Below, in pieces: positions 3,256 through 9,215 of a DNA stretch of 32,965 nucleotides. Each line of letters starts with the position of its first letter. Position 1 is the stretch's first letter. The stretch covers positions 1 through 32,965 of the forward strand of contig LBYO01000015.1 in assembly GCA_000996205.1 (NCBI GenBank), read 5' to 3'. Origin of the DNA: Parcubacteria group bacterium GW2011_GWA1_40_21 (GTDB lineage: Bacteria > Patescibacteriota > Minisyncoccia > Phycocordibacterales > GWA1-40-21). Under the pieces are notes generated by a model that was not told the DNA's origin, searched no databases, and was given only the letters and a program-made list of their open reading frames with translations. Made by a program: the position numbers and the translations under genes.

Positions 3256-4767
3256 CTAAACCTCTCTCAATACTTTTATTTTCGCGCCGAGATTATTTAA
3301 CCGTTTTATTATGTCTTCATAACCGCGGTTTATGCTGTAAATATTTCTAAGAATTGACACTCCTCTCGCGCCAAGCATTCCGATAAGTATTATCGCCGCC
3401 GGTCTTAGGGCGGAGGGGCAGATTATCTCGTTCGCCCTTAGTCTGGTCGGTCCGGTGATATAGATGCGGTGCGGATCGGCGAGAAGAGTTTCAGCTCCAA
3501 GCTTATCAAGCTCGGCGTAATAGCTTGCTCTCTTTTCATACACCCAGTCGTGAATCAATGTTTTTCCTTCCGCCTGCGTGGCTATGACGGCGAAGTAGGG
3601 GAGATTATCTATGTTCAGCCCCGGATAAGGGCGGGATTCTATCTTGTCGTCAAGCGCCGTCAATTTTGAGGGATAAGTTTTTATATCAACAAGATTAGTT
3701 CTTTCATTTTCGGCTTTGTATCTCTTTATAATCTTATATTTGAAATCCATCTTCTCCAGTTTAAGAAGTTCAATTTCCAAAAAATCAATGGGGCATCGTT
3801 CTATCGTGATTGATGAGTTCGTTAAAATCGCCGCCGAAATAAAAAACATTGATTCAATCGGGTCTTCGCTCAAACAATACGATACAGGAATATCTATCTC
3901 TTCTTTTCCGTGAATAATGAGTGTCGTTGTTCCAATTCCTTCAATTTTCACTCCGAGTTTTTCCATAAAAAAACAGAGTTCTTGGACTTGATAATTGGCC
4001 GAAGCGAATTTGATTACTGTTTTTCCGGCAATCTTCGCCGCCGCCATTATTGCGTTTTCCGTCACAGTGTCGCCCGATTCGTAAAGAACGATTTCATTTG
4101 GAGTCAACTTGCCTACGCGGATTTCGTATCTATCCGTTCTCGCTTTTATGTCAACTCCCAGTTTTTCCAGAGCGAAGAAGTGAGGCCTTACAGTTCTTGA
4201 ACCGAGCTTGCACCCTCCGGCTTGCGGAAGGTCAAATGATTTGAAGAGATGAATGAGAGGGCCGATCATCATTATCACGCTTCGCGTTCTTATGGCTGAT
4301 TCTTTGTTTATTTTTGAAAGCGATATTTTTTTAGGCGGGACGATATGAAGATCATTTCCGTTCCATTTGGCGGAAACGCCGATGCTCTCCAAGACTTCAA
4401 TTATTCTGTAAACCTCTTCAATCTTTGGAACATTCTTTAGAACCGTTTTGTTTTTATTGAGAAGGGAAGAGCATAAGAGTCCGACAGCGCCGTTTTTTGA
4501 AGTCTTTGTTTTAACAGTTCCGCTAAGCTTCGCTCCGCCCTCAATCTGGATATTTATCGCGCCGTCAGAGACGCTCACGATATCCTGATCCAAAGTGTCG
4601 CTTATTTTAGAAAGCATAACAGTGCTTAAATTCTGCTCGCCATTTTCAATCCTCGCGATGACGCTCTGCGATGTGCAAAGCTTTTCCGCGAATCGCTCTT
4701 GAGTGATGCCCCTCTCCGCCCGCAGTTTTTGGATAAGTTTCCCTATGTGCGCCAATTTTTTATTCAT
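3256..4767 (-). CDS. murA: XRE-type HTH fused to UDP-GlcNAc 1-carboxyvinyltransferase (MurA)
   Basis: MurA transfers enolpyruvate from PEP to UDP-GlcNAc, the first committed step of peptidoglycan synthesis. Residues 8-60 form a Cro/XRE helix-turn-helix (ITQERFAEKLCTSQSVIARI). MurA follows from about residue 70: the K91-N92 substrate pair (TSKNG), the catalytic loop GGCKLGSRTV with C186 (the fosfomycin-target cysteine is retained), and the C-terminal half to residue 503. A standalone MurA has about 420 residues, so the extension is a true extra domain in one continuous frame. A perfect 16-bp palindrome overlaps the promoter, and the start is 6 bases past the -10. This suggests the enzyme binds its own operator. 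Enzymatic assignment is strong; autoregulation is inferred. Confidence 0.9.
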   Translation of the reverse strand: MNKKLAHIGKLIQKLRAERGITQERFAEKLCTSQSVIARIENGEQNLSTVMLSKISDTLDQDIVSVSDGAINIQIEGGAKLSGTVKTKTSKNGAVGLLCSSLLNKNKTVLKNVPKIEEVYRIIEVLESIGVSAKWNGNDLHIVPPKKISLSKINKESAIRTRSVIMMIGPLIHLFKSFDLPQAGGCKLGSRTVRPHFFALEKLGVDIKARTDRYEIRVGKLTPNEIVLYESGDTVTENAIMAAAKIAGKTVIKFASANYQVQELCFFMEKLGVKIEGIGTTTLIIHGKEEIDIPVSYCLSEDPIESMFFISAAILTNSSITIERCPIDFLEIELLKLEKMDFKYKIIKRYKAENERTNLVDIKTYPSKLTALDDKIESRPYPGLNIDNLPYFAVIATQAEGKTLIHDWVYEKRASYYAELDKLGAETLLADPHRIYITGPTRLRANEIICPSALRPAAIILIGMLGARGVSILRNIYSINRGYEDIIKRLNNLGAKIKVLREV

Positions 4768-4773
4768 TAAAAT

Positions 4774-4792
4774 ATAATAGCATATATGCTAT
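4774..4792 (-). promoter_or_regulatory. murA promoter with palindromic operator
   Basis: ATAGCATATATGCTAT (4777-4792) is a perfect 16-bp palindrome. It overlaps the extended -10 TGCTATTAT (4774-4782, minus strand), which ends 6 bases before the murA ATG. No ribosome-binding site fits in that gap, so the mRNA should be leaderless. A dimer bound to the palindrome would block the promoter; the HTH encoded by murA itself is the obvious candidate. Confidence 0.6.
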
Positions 4793-4887
4793 ACGGCTGG
4801 AAATTGACACGAATATTTGTTCAAGTATGATGGTATTATTCCACTTGGAATTGGAATTAGTTCCTTAAAATCTTAATAAAGAAAGGG

Positions 4888-4969: not shown

Positions 4970-5767
4970 ATGATGGGTTTGAAAAATGATAATATGAAGT
5001 TAAAAATTCTTCTAATTCACGGTTGGAATTACGCCAACTACACATCGTCAGGATGCGTAGATGCGTGGGCGAACCGCTCATCGTTCGTAGTCGCATTGTC
5101 CAAGCATTTTGAAGTCGTCACTTTTAATCTGCCCGGATTTTGCGGAGAGAAAGACCCTGAAACTTCCTGGAATATTGACGACTTTGCGAAATTGATTCAA
5201 AAAAAAGTTCGCCAAGAAAACCCCGATTATATTCTCGGTTATTCTTTTGGCGGCGCGGTAGCTTTGCGTTTTAAGAAAATCACGGGGGATATTCATATTA
5301 AAGTTATTTTGGTTTCTCCTGCAATTATTCGGAAATATGAAAAAAAAGTTTACAGTCATGGCATATTTCAACGAATTCTTAAAACTATTCTGCCAGAAAA
5401 ATCAATTTCTATTCTTCGTGATATTTATCTTATAAAAATAGTGAAAAATCCATATTACGCCGGAGCAAGCAGGGTAATGCGGGAAACATATCGCAACATC
5501 GTGTCTGTTGATCTTAGAAACGATTTATTATTCGTTACGAATTCGCTTTCTCTCATCTATGGGGAAAAAGACACGGCAACGCCCAATGAATTGGTCAGAA
5601 ATGTTTTGAAAAATTCCACTGCTCATCATAATCTATATGTTATTTCCGGTGGCGGACATGATATTGCCAACACTCACACAGAAGAGTTGGTTTCTGTAAT
5701 TCTTAAAATCAAGGAGGGAGATGGATATGAGAATAAATCTGAAAATCTTGGCGCGAATTTTGCCTAA
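4970..5767 (+). CDS. alpha/beta hydrolase
   Basis: A 265-residue alpha/beta-hydrolase with all expected landmarks: HGW (17-19) for the oxyanion region, the nucleophile elbow GYSFGG with S92, the acid D201 in YGEKD, and the histidine H230 in GGGHD. The triad is intact, so it should be active as an esterase, lipase or amidase; the substrate is not readable. The start is ATG 4970 (or 4973), with AAAGGAGG at 4956-4963. Its 3' end overlaps the next gene by about 40 bases, so it is translationally coupled to a Mur ligase relative. That pairing suggests work on peptidoglycan precursors or cell-surface esters (inference). Confidence 0.85.
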   Translation: MMGLKNDNMKLKILLIHGWNYANYTSSGCVDAWANRSSFVVALSKHFEVVTFNLPGFCGEKDPETSWNIDDFAKLIQKKVRQENPDYILGYSFGGAVALRFKKITGDIHIKVILVSPAIIRKYEKKVYSHGIFQRILKTILPEKSISILRDIYLIKIVKNPYYAGASRVMRETYRNIVSVDLRNDLLFVTNSLSLIYGEKDTATPNELVRNVLKNSTAHHNLYVISGGGHDIANTHTEELVSVILKIKEGDGYENKSENLGANFA

Positions 5768-7103
5768 TGTTGAATTTTATAATTTAGGCAAAGATGAGGA
5801 TTTTGAAATCTGCAACATCGCTCATCTGAACAGTTTTGACACATTTCCTTCAGGCACGAAAACTCTTTATTTTTTAATATACGAAGACAAGCCAGAAATT
5901 TTAGGATGGTACAATAAGCCATTTGACCGTTCGCAAAATTTGGAAAGACTTAAAAAAATGAATAATTTGGTTTTTGTCGCAGACTATCGGGTGTCAGATG
6001 AACAACTGTTAAATTGCAGATATGTTCGCGTTGGAGATATATATCAAGCGATAAAAATAATACGCGAATATGTTATTTCATCCGTAAACCCTAAAGTTGT
6101 TGGCGTAACGGGAAGTGTTGGAAAGACTACCGCCACATCTTTAATAGAAAGCGTCCTGTCGCGGAAATTTCATTGCGGCAGGATATATTCAAAACGGCTT
6201 ACCCCGCTTACACTATCTTCTTGGCTCATAAATTTTCTTGAACCAAATCATCAGATTTTAACTCTTGAATATTCAATGTACAGAAAGGATCACATCGGTC
6301 TTCTTGCGCAGATGCTAAAGCCAAATATTGCCGTTTTCCTCAATATAGAGAGGGTGCATCTTGGCGTAGATGGCATCAATACCCTGTGTGATATTCAGGA
6401 GGCAAAATCAGTGCTGATTGATAAATCAGAAATCGGCATTTTAAACGCTGACAATCCGCTCATTCTAGATTTGAAAAGAAAAAATGATTTGATATTCTCG
6501 CGTAAAGATCCAAAAGCAGACGCTTTTATAAGGAGTGACGGAGATGTTGTGTATTTAAATTTGAATTATGTTAATCAAATAATTCCATTCAACTCTCTTT
6601 ATATCAAAACAAGACTTTTCTATTATCAAGTCGCCGCCACCGGACTTGTTAGTAGCTTATTAGGAATTCCGACAAGTGATATTTATGAGACTATAACAAA
6701 TTTTGTTCCTGCTGAAAATAGGATCAAATGGATCAAGGCTTTTGGAGAAGATATATTGTTTGACGGCGATGTTACAATAAGCGGTAGATTATTCGCTCTT
6801 GCAAATAATGATTACAAGACAAGTCTTTTGCTGATTCACAGTTTCGATTTCGGAGAAGAAAATGTCTCATTACAAGTTGATGATTTTAATCAAGCATTTT
6901 CCTTTTTTAATGAAGTGAGGATTCTTGATACAAATGAAAACAGGGATATAGTTTCGAAGTATTCTTTTAAGAACATTTTTTTCTTTACAAAAAGCAAATT
7001 TTTGAAGAATATATCAAATTATCAATTCAAAGTTTTTCACTTCGGCACATATTACAGAAAGCACAAAGACTTACAATATCTCTTTAATTTTTTAAGCGCT
7101 TGA
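5727..7103 (+). CDS. Mur ligase family protein (MurE/MurF-like)
   Basis: An ATP-dependent amide ligase of the Mur superfamily, about 458 residues. The P-loop GVTGSVGKTT is at about residues 126-135. It is followed by the central-domain signature: the LEYSM glutamate, NIERVHLGVDG, and the carbamylated-lysine segment EAKSVL. The C-terminal third, after AENRIKW, is poorly conserved and lacks the DDSYNANP-like motif of MurF (here FDGDVTISG). The substrate may therefore differ from the normal D-Ala-D-Ala addition. ATG 5727 is preferred to ATG 5721 because AAGGAGG at 5711-5717 is 9 bases from it and only 3 from the other. It overlaps the hydrolase gene by 41 bases. A genuine murE is encoded at 18902, so this is an additional ligase. 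Confidence 0.8.
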   Translation: MRINLKILARILPNVEFYNLGKDEDFEICNIAHLNSFDTFPSGTKTLYFLIYEDKPEILGWYNKPFDRSQNLERLKKMNNLVFVADYRVSDEQLLNCRYVRVGDIYQAIKIIREYVISSVNPKVVGVTGSVGKTTATSLIESVLSRKFHCGRIYSKRLTPLTLSSWLINFLEPNHQILTLEYSMYRKDHIGLLAQMLKPNIAVFLNIERVHLGVDGINTLCDIQEAKSVLIDKSEIGILNADNPLILDLKRKNDLIFSRKDPKADAFIRSDGDVVYLNLNYVNQIIPFNSLYIKTRLFYYQVAATGLVSSLLGIPTSDIYETITNFVPAENRIKWIKAFGEDILFDGDVTISGRLFALANNDYKTSLLLIHSFDFGEENVSLQVDDFNQAFSFFNEVRILDTNENRDIVSKYSFKNIFFFTKSKFLKNISNYQFKVFHFGTYYRKHKDLQYLFNFLSA

Positions 7104-7121
7104 GCAATCAAGCGCTTTTCT
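7094..7121 (+). terminator. intrinsic terminator overlapping the ligase stop codon
   Basis: AAGCGCTTGA, loop GCAA, TCAAGCGCTT gives a perfect 10-bp stem followed by TTCTTTGTCTTG. The stop codon TGA (7101-7103) lies inside the stem. Confidence 0.75.
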
Positions 7122-7168
7122 TTGTCTTGTTTCGTTTAACGAAAGCCGTTAAGCTGATAATCAAGTGA

Positions 7169-7354
7169 GTATTCAATGACTTTGCTTTGGTATCTATTCA
7201 CGCTTCAGTCATAAGTTTGAATAACGGTTCAATTCGTGTTTTGGAAAAGTCGGGATTTAGTCAGATTGGCAAATATCAGAAATCCAGATTTGAATCAGGT
7301 AAGCACTATGACGAACTATTATTTGAGCTTGTGCGCGAAGGGATAACAATATGA
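7169..7354 (+). pseudogene. C-terminal remnant of a GNAT acetyltransferase
   Basis: An open frame of 61 codons with no start codon runs from the stop TGA at 7166 to the TGA at 7352. It encodes the typical RimJ/RimL-like GNAT ending: N-N-G-S-I-R-V-L-E-K-S-G-F-S-Q-I-G, then G-K-H-Y-D-E-L-L-F-E-L. The acetyl-CoA-binding half is missing upstream. Its stop overlaps the start of the VanX-like gene (ATGA), which suggests that the intact gene once preceded vanX in an operon. Recognition rests on remembered family patterns. A functional mini-protein is unlikely without a start. Confidence 0.7.
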
Positions 7355-8046
7355 AAAATTTTTTTAAAAAAATACTTCAAAACGCTGGGCTTCTCGGTTT
7401 TGTTTATAGAATCAGTTATAAGCTCGGCTTCATTAGTATGATTCCAAGCGCTTATGTTCGCTCTGTTCCTATTAACGAAAACGGAGAATCTCTCATATTG
7501 ATTCAGCCGTCCGAAAAAATAGAGGTTTTTTGCCCAAACGAAAAAGAAGTGTTGGTTAGAAAAACTGTTTTAGACAAACTTGTTGCCGCGAGCTCAATGC
7601 TTCCTGACGGTTTCAAATTGAAAATCCTTTATGGTTATAGAAGTTTGCGAGTTCAAGAAAAATTTTGGAAAGAAGTATGCGCGAATATTAGGCAGAAAAA
7701 TCCGGATTTAACGGAGCAGGAAGTTGAAGCAAAAGCGCGCCGATATTCGGCGGTACCAGATGGCAAAGGACCTCATCAGACTGGCGGAGCTGTGGATATT
7801 TTGATTGAGGATAGCAACGGATCATCTCTTGATTTTGGAACAGAGTATCGCGGTTATGGCGATGATGTTTTTATGCATTCAAAATACATAACTCTCAAAC
7901 AAAAACTAAACAGGAAATTACTTAGAAAAATTATGCAATCAGCAGGGTTTATTTATTATCCCGGTGAATGGTGGCATTACTCTTACGGCGACCAAACTTG
8001 GGTGGCGTATACGGGCAATAAACACGCTTTGTATGATTTTCTGTAG
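7351..8046 (+). CDS. VanX-like D-alanyl-D-alanine dipeptidase (peptidase M15)
   Basis: A 231-residue zinc peptidase of family M15. The zinc and catalytic residues are visible: H142 and D149 in PHQTGGAVDI, E206 and H209 in EWWHY, and the YGYR arginine (97) upstream. The pattern is closer to VanX dipeptidases, which cleave D-Ala-D-Ala, than to VanY carboxypeptidases. The first 28 residues are basic and hydrophobic (YRISYKLGFISM) but do not form a clean signal peptide, so a cytoplasmic site is possible. There it could recycle D-Ala-D-Ala or counteract ligases; vancomycin resistance should not be assumed. No good ribosome-binding site precedes the ATG, which overlaps the stop of the GNAT remnant. 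Confidence 0.85.
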   Translation: MKNFFKKILQNAGLLGFVYRISYKLGFISMIPSAYVRSVPINENGESLILIQPSEKIEVFCPNEKEVLVRKTVLDKLVAASSMLPDGFKLKILYGYRSLRVQEKFWKEVCANIRQKNPDLTEQEVEAKARRYSAVPDGKGPHQTGGAVDILIEDSNGSSLDFGTEYRGYGDDVFMHSKYITLKQKLNRKLLRKIMQSAGFIYYPGEWWHYSYGDQTWVAYTGNKHALYDFL

Positions 8047-8057
8047 TAAGGTAAATT

Positions 8058-8102
8058 AAAAATGACTCTCTTTATTTAAAATTTAAAGAGGGTCATTTTT
8101 TT
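8058..8102 (+). terminator. intrinsic terminator after the VanX-like gene
   Basis: AAAAATGACTCTCTTT pairs with AAAGAGGGTCATTTTT (16 bp with one G-T pair) and runs into a seven-T tail, 12 bases beyond the stop. Confidence 0.85.
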
Positions 8103-8201
8103 GCCTTGTTTCATTTGCGGATTTATTGTATCTTCTAAAATAAAGGAAGTTTTGCGGTGAGGAAGCGGGAATATGTTAATATAACTTCAATAAAGACAAA
8201 T

Positions 8202-9215
8202 ATGTCCATATTTTCTAAAAAATTGGGAATAGATCTGGGGACGACAAGCACAATCGTGTTTTTGCCGGGCAAGGGAATAGTGCTGAATGAGCCGTCAGTC
8301 GTGGCGGTTTCGGAGCAGGACAACAAAATTCTCGCCGTCGGGCTTGAAGCGAAAGGCATGATAGGGAAGACACCGGATAACATCATCGCTTACCGGCCGA
8401 TGAAGGACGGGGTCATCGCCGATTATCGGGTGACGGAAGCGATGCTCCGATATTTTATTGACAAAGCGCTCGGCAAATGGAATCTGTTCAAGCCGGAAGT
8501 GATGATCTCCGTTCCAGCCGGAGTCACCTCCACCGAAAGAAGAGCGGTGGTTGAAGCCGCCATAAAAGCGGGAGCGAAAAACGCCTATGTGGTGAAGGAG
8601 CCGATTCTAGCCGCGATAGGCGCAGGCATCCCAATATATGAAGCGGTGGGACATATGGTGGTTGACATCGGAGGAGGAACGACCGATGTGGCTGTTATAT
8701 CGCTCGGCGGAATCGTGGCATCGACATCGGTGAAATGCGCCGGCAACAAAATTGATTACGCCATAGCCGATTACATAAAAAAGACTTTCAATCTGGCTGT
8801 GGGCGATCAGACCGCTGAAAACATAAAAATCAATATCGGATCGGCCGTGCCTCTTGAAGAAGAGCTTTCAATGCTGGTCAAAGGGCGCGATTTTCTATCA
8901 GGACTCCCAAGATCAACCGAGATAAAAACCAATGAAATAGTCAAAGCCATAGGCAAAGAATTGCGGGATATGATCAAGGCGATTAAAGATGTCCTGCAAG
9001 AAACTCCGCCCGAACTCGCCGCCGACATAATTGATCAAGGCATCATAATGACCGGTGGCTCATCTCAATTAAGGAATTTACCGGAACTCGTTTTCAGAAG
9101 AACGGGAGTCAAAGCAATTCTCGCTGAAAATCCTCTTTATTGTGTCGCCAAAGGCACGGGAATCGCTTTGGAACATTTGGACACTTACAAGAGAAGTATT
9201 ATTGTGAAGAGATAA
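8202..9215 (+). CDS. mreB: rod-shape-determining actin homologue MreB
   Basis: MreB forms membrane-associated filaments that direct lateral wall synthesis. The actin-fold signatures are all present: phosphate 1 LGIDLGTTST at the N-terminus, phosphate 2 VVDIGGGTTDVAVIS, and the adenosine motif IMTGGSSQL, in about 337 residues, the usual length. ATG 8202 matches the start of other MreBs (MSIFSKKLGIDLG). A GTG at 8157 in the same frame has a better ribosome-binding site (AAGGAAG, 8143-8149) and would add 15 basic residues; which is used is undecided. No mreC, mreD or rodA adjoins it, unlike the usual operon. Base composition here is richer in G+C than the preceding hydrolase-ligase island. Confidence 0.95.
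   Translation: MSIFSKKLGIDLGTTSTIVFLPGKGIVLNEPSVVAVSEQDNKILAVGLEAKGMIGKTPDNIIAYRPMKDGVIADYRVTEAMLRYFIDKALGKWNLFKPEVMISVPAGVTSTERRAVVEAAIKAGAKNAYVVKEPILAAIGAGIPIYEAVGHMVVDIGGGTTDVAVISLGGIVASTSVKCAGNKIDYAIADYIKKTFNLAVGDQTAENIKINIGSAVPLEEELSMLVKGRDFLSGLPRSTEIKTNEIVKAIGKELRDMIKAIKDVLQETPPELAADIIDQGIIMTGGSSQLRNLPELVFRRTGVKAILAENPLYCVAKGTGIALEHLDTYKRSIIVKR

Follow-up and report, generated by a model that had tools for sequence, protein, structure and literature searches.

A MurA enzyme fused to a DNA-binding domain is a candidate self-regulating trigger enzyme for peptidoglycan

We analyzed a 32,965-nt stretch of DNA (hereafter the window) from Parcubacteria group bacterium GW2011_GWA1_40_21, contig LBYO01000015.1 (GCA_000996205.1), which encodes a MurA that carries its own helix-turn-helix (HTH) domain. 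Judging from comparison with homologues, we think it very probable that this HTH-MurA is a self-regulating trigger enzyme for peptidoglycan, one that represses its own gene. The sequence comparison shows the fusion itself, an intact active site, a conserved dyad, a link of that dyad to the HTH, and near-uniqueness of the site, and from these we infer DNA binding, dimerization, and repression by HTH-MurA.

The sequence-only reading had described an XRE-type HTH fused to a complete MurA, and this description holds, since the 503-aa ORF matches Pfam HTH_3 above the cut-off (aa 12-60, 1.2e-13) and Pfam EPSP_synthase (aa 76-490, 1.5e-45) and its catalytic residues are conserved (Table 1). In the AlphaFold model of the window protein, the HTH and MurA domains are both confident, the linker is low-confidence, and the HTH helices span residues 3-18, 23-29, 34-41, and 49-59; the recognition helix lies around TSQSVIAR. 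When the PDB was searched with the protein sequence, MurA ranked first, and when it was searched with the model by Foldseek, the nearest folds were all MurA structures. The protein scores 317.6 bits against the NCBIfam MurA subfamily PRK09369, above the cut-off of 297, and 311.8 against TIGR01072 (murA), below the equivalog cut-off of 392.7. Lys91-Asn92, Cys186, Arg191, Asp387, and Arg481 (window numbering), which we take to be K22/N23, C115, R120, D305, and R397 of E. coli MurA, are invariant in a set of 12 homologues and in a set of 55. By these matches, the window protein is an XRE HTH fused to a MurA with intact active-site residues. A whole-genome search of the 761-kb source genome found no second MurA, and the window also holds murE, mraY, ftsW, and murG homologues. 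A divergent cluster adjoining HTH-murA (window 4970-9215) encodes an alpha/beta hydrolase, a MurF-like ligase, an M15/VanY-type peptidase, and MreB. The HTH itself resembles antitoxin-type XRE domains (couple_hipB, 4e-10) and also matches NCBIfam PRK08154, which is annotated as an anaerobic benzoate catabolism regulator.

Table 1. Positions of the HTH-MurA gene, its domains, and the putative control elements in the window
Feature	Position	Strand	Basis
HTH-MurA gene, 503 aa	3256..4767	(-)	single ORF, ATG at 4767-4765
XRE/Cro-CI-type HTH domain, aa 8-62	4582..4746	(-)	Pfam HTH_3 and model helices
Short linker, aa 63-71	4555..4581	(-)	pLDDT <50 at aa 64-68
MurA (EPSP-synthase fold) domain, catalytic residues conserved	3268..4554	(-)	profile, PDB sequence and structure matches
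Putative operator, perfect 16-bp palindrome ATAGCATATATGCTAT	4777..4792	(.)	exact; conserved in homologues
TG-extended -10 box TGCTATTAT	4774..4782	(-)	inside and beside operator right arm
Weak -35-like hexamer TTTCCA	4798..4803	(-)	consensus match only; 18-nt spacer

A perfect palindrome over the promoter, 9 bases from the start codon, had also been proposed, and that is what we find at 4777-4792, where ATAGCATATATGCTAT, with two 8-nt arms that are 100% complementary, overlaps an extended -10 element and ends 9 nt from the HTH-murA ATG. The exact 16-mer occurs once in the 761-kb source genome. The -10 hexamer TATTAT (4779-4774, minus strand) ends 6 nt before the ATG, and the HTH-murA mRNA in the window is therefore probably leaderless.

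A MurA-like match was obtained in 321 of the 397 genomes searched in the order, and these MurAs are of two kinds: a clade whose members, some with the HTH and some without, are roughly 51% or more identical to the window protein, and an ordinary MurA at about 30%. We searched the 300 bp before each gene with the window palindrome as query, at 87 HTH-bearing loci with usable upstream DNA, 37 HTH-less loci of the same clade, and 20 loci of ordinary MurA. Every one of the 87 HTH-bearing genes has the palindrome with at most 4 mismatches, 84 with at most 3, and 22 exactly, and the TG of the extended -10 is kept in 87/87. At most 3 mismatches were reached by 0.6% of shuffled sequences, by 0/20 ordinary murA genes, and by 2/37 HTH-less clade members, both of them from one lineage (L125 and L128). 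Some other HTH-bearing genes (L190, L201, L249, and L284) lack a clear site. In a scan of whole genomes, 45 of 54 HTH-bearing genomes contained the exact degenerate palindrome, with murA as its location almost every time; the pattern turned up in 2 of 26 HTH-less genomes, away from murA in both, and a reversed version used as control matched 0 of 80. In nearly all fusion-bearing genomes of the order, the fusion is the sole MurA found. One genome (G119) has a second HTH-MurA copy on contig C6 (L329), and a further ATATCATATATGATAT site lies after that copy and before a PriA-like gene.

On the tree of MurA domains, one of our quick trees with SH-aLRT support only, the HTH changes state about 18 times, and strong branch support backs at least 9 of these changes. 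Of 9 independent pairs taken on well-supported branches, about 8.5 show the operator going with the HTH and none shows the opposite (sign test, p~0.004). It is the left arm that is lost together with the HTH, in about 9 independent lineages, while the arm that overlaps the -10 box can persist, as in the HTH-less L019, L020, and L026, where the right arm is retained alone. Because the left arm is conserved only where the HTH is present, the operator can be separated from the promoter. Since the HTH was lost many times, the regulation would be dispensable.

The two arms of the site also vary together, and they vary with the protein. Arm positions 1, 2, and 5 are invariant in operators of the order, and arm position 4 varies, being symmetric between the arms in 76% of genes versus 41% expected. 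The base here goes with the amino acid just ahead of QS in the recognition helix, Thr pairing with G in 41 of 42 cases and Ser with a base other than G in 35 of 38. A Pagel test of helix residue against base, which takes the tree into account, gives LR 34.5 (p~6e-7), and none of 2000 simulations was as concordant as the observed pattern; an independent-pairs test, with just 3 supported pairs, was not significant. The window protein is itself an exception to this code, having Ser with G/G arms. HigBA-like toxin-antitoxin (TA) operons, one of them in the source genome, carry the same palindrome core CATATATG as the HTH-MurA operator, but the corresponding residue of their antitoxin HTHs is Lys or Arg and their arms are ATAAC or ATCAC, which agrees with a recognition surface shared with HTH-MurA. 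In the source genome and related genomes, the TA-operon palindromes are located some 10-25 nt upstream of the start codon. The source-genome pair (Gp49 plus HTH_3; L003 1720-1735, C16:30652-30667) has the related operator ATAACATATATGTTAT, and HigBA-like pairs with a similar operator also occur in L328 and L330.

The earlier proposal took MurA's own gene as the target, which is right for most sites, and some sites lie elsewhere. The exact palindrome precedes the murC ATG by about 10 nt, downstream of murD, in one genome (G091, L325 1460-1475), and in another (G018, L304 2019-2034) the palindrome is in the promoter of a gene with a PBP4B-like/class C beta-lactamase fold that is followed by an mpl/murC-like ligase. 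These wall-pathway operators besides that of murA were each seen in a single genome. Six genomes (L300-L303, L305, L306, L309-L316) have the palindrome in the promoter of a small hydrophobic protein of about 56-75 aa, probably a membrane protein, for which no Pfam match was found; in G005, whose MurA is without the HTH, the promoter of the small protein is likewise without the left arm. Among the few sites left over, some look like chance, as does one inside rpoC-like coding DNA (L324). Around the second sites, Rfam returned tRNAs and weak sub-threshold matches, with nothing that would account for the sites; group I intron-like matches just under the Rfam gathering threshold occur at L302 6-242 and L303 1382-1669.

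The setting proposed in the sequence-only reading was CPR bacteria; Patescibacteria are indeed part of it, and the distribution is wider, extending to Actinomycetota and Streptomyces MurA2. In the same class outside the order, the palindrome is present in 3 HTH-bearing genomes and absent from 13 HTH-less ones. HTH-MurA is found in named genomes of many Patescibacteria including Saccharibacteria, whose sites are degenerate, and also in Streptomyces, Actinacidiphila, Marinitenerispora, Knoellia, and one Acidimicrobiia MAG; of 297 genomes sampled evenly across Actinomycetota, 16 carry it. An AT-rich palindrome, typically ATCTCATATCTGAGAT, lies about 12 nt (10-17 nt) before the start, within GC-rich surrounding DNA, at 30 of the 31 loci from actinobacteria, a set with many close Streptomyces relatives, so that the expected co-occurrence of palindrome and other HTH-MurA genes is borne out here as well as in the order. 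Allowing at most 1 mismatch, this palindrome occurs once per genome, at HTH-murA, in 10 of 11 actinobacterial genomes, and the eleventh (G1004) has one additional near-match.

In all 6 Streptomyces-like loci checked, HTH-MurA lies 0.5-6 kb from aconitase, and in S. coelicolor the MurA2 gene SCO5998 is described, in the relevant passage of PMC12161575, as adjoining acnA (SCO5999). On this synteny, we match the actinobacterial HTH-MurA to Streptomyces MurA2. The passages on MurA2 in that paper treat it as a MurA under predicted DmdR1 control, and those in PMC8346170 as a MurA under predicted SigB-dependent control, in neither case as a DNA-binding enzyme; we could not locate the published SigB promoter of SCO5998 at the S. 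violaceoruber locus. The actinobacterial proteins (L235, L240, L244, L246-L261) group, in a quick tree, as a single clade that sits within the Saccharibacteria (SH-aLRT 99), and this nesting suggests that HTH-murA was transferred, together with its operator, from Saccharibacteria-like, epibiont-type Patescibacteria to Actinomycetota.

In the mechanism that we propose, the MurA domain would make the first peptidoglycan precursor, and each arm of ATAGCATATATGCTAT would be bound by the HTH of a separate MurA molecule. Once there, HTH-MurA would cover the murA -10 box, from which a leaderless mRNA is probably made, and shut off RNA polymerase, and MurA would thereby limit its own synthesis, a negative autoregulation that the sequence-only reading had anticipated and that the comparisons above support. 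A small number of other promoters, including ones that serve cell-wall genes, might also be targets of HTH-MurA in some genomes. How well MurA binds the operator would depend on its ligand state (UDP-GlcNAc/PEP, or the closed form with UDP-MurNAc bound); this step is speculative, and gating by the UDP-MurNAc-bound state is a favored guess that could as easily be wrong as right. We give only slightly less than an even chance to the fullest form of the proposal, in which MurA, gated by its ligands (UDP-GlcNAc plus PEP versus UDP-MurNAc), is a repressor of murA and also, in certain genomes, of murC and other wall genes, and in which the gene originated with its operator in Patescibacteria, underwent repeated loss, and reached Actinomycetota from a donor resembling Saccharibacteria, becoming the second MurA of Streptomyces.

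Would another protein, or no protein at all, explain the palindrome? If it were merely a strong extended -10 promoter with incidental symmetry, the right arm would be accounted for, since this arm is the extended -10 with its constant TG and is retained in some HTH-less genes. The left arm, however, is conserved only with the HTH (84/87 versus 2/37 and 0/20 at up to 3 mismatches) and covaries with the right arm, and we reject an ordinary promoter as the whole explanation, which we find scarcely credible. The site might instead be the operator of a separate, free-standing XRE repressor, with the HTH of MurA serving some other role; the source genome does have other XRE proteins, one of them with the related site ATAACATATATGTTAT. 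Such a repressor would leave it unexplained that the site vanishes when MurA's own HTH does, that it tracks the recognition helix of MurA, and that it is confined to HTH-murA in nearly all of the actinobacterial genomes scanned. We consider a separate binder very improbable, if not quite so much as the promoter-only reading, and reject it because the site follows the MurA HTH, its helix, and the position of HTH-murA.

The remaining alternatives accept that HTH-MurA is the binder and differ in what its MurA domain contributes. That domain could be a ligand sensor devoid of enzyme activity, making the protein a regulator like BzdR (PMC3602430). The window protein does fall under the strict TIGR01072 equivalog cut-off, and a genome of Streptomyces violaceoruber holds a second, standard MurA. 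This alternative is nonetheless improbable, although less so than the two just rejected, because the catalytic residues are invariant in 55 homologues, the fusion is the only MurA found in the source genome and in nearly all fusion-bearing genomes of the order, the window holds further genes of the pathway (murE, mraY, ftsW, and murG homologues), and, within the clade, proteins without the HTH serve on their own. Much closer to our own reading is plain negative autoregulation that takes in no metabolite signal, in which the HTH comes from an antitoxin-like repressor and gauges only the concentration of MurA, the state of the enzyme having no bearing on DNA binding. The kinship of the HTH to antitoxin-type XRE domains favors it, as do the TA operons of these genomes, which share the core CATATATG and differ in the arms, and the predicted flexibility of the linker. 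Of the 152 homologues that were parsed, 150 keep the spacing from recognition helix to MurA within a range of 2 residues, and this near constancy hints at a geometric constraint and would fit coupling of the enzyme to DNA binding, but the linker is low-confidence in the model. MurA structures also trap distinct ligand states, e.g., UDP-MurNAc with a PEP adduct (from PDB titles). Neither point is decisive against plain autoregulation, to which we give somewhat less than an even chance; it is a narrower form of the self-regulating trigger enzyme that we favor, and the confidence in the two overlaps.

Within the openly searchable literature, we found no published account of a MurA that binds DNA, and the text of a paper on XRE palindromes (PMC12565409) makes no mention of MurA. 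Our reading gives Streptomyces MurA2 a predicted regulatory role, and because MurA2 belongs to cultivable bacteria, the prediction is testable now. The natural pairs of HTH gain and loss, together with a readable code between arm and helix, make this a good system for asking how enzymes become regulators. The phylogeny further suggests that a core wall gene moved from Saccharibacteria-like epibionts to Actinomycetota.

The trigger-enzyme concept is already known from BirA (biotin ligase/repressor) and PutA, each a single polypeptide that works both as a metabolic enzyme and as a DNA-binding repressor acting on its own pathway's genes (PMC6978683). HTH-MurA would resemble them in having a catalytic and a DNA-binding domain in one chain with the active-site residues kept; it differs in folds, ligands, and pathway, joining an XRE HTH to a MurA of peptidoglycan synthesis with mainly its own gene as predicted target. 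BzdR, which controls benzoate degradation genes, likewise joins an N-terminal HTH to a metabolic-enzyme fold, but its shikimate-kinase-like effector domain has lost its activity (PMC3602430), whereas HTH-MurA retains its catalytic residues and usually has no other MurA alongside it. The antitoxins of the HigA/Gp49 type share with HTH-MurA the HTH family and the core CATATATG before the start codon, but they are small, have a toxin partner and ATAAC/ATCAC arms, and carry no enzyme domain. A further close counterpart is Streptomyces MurA2 (SCO5998), which has the same aconitase neighbor, the S. coelicolor gene being known here from the account in PMC12161575.
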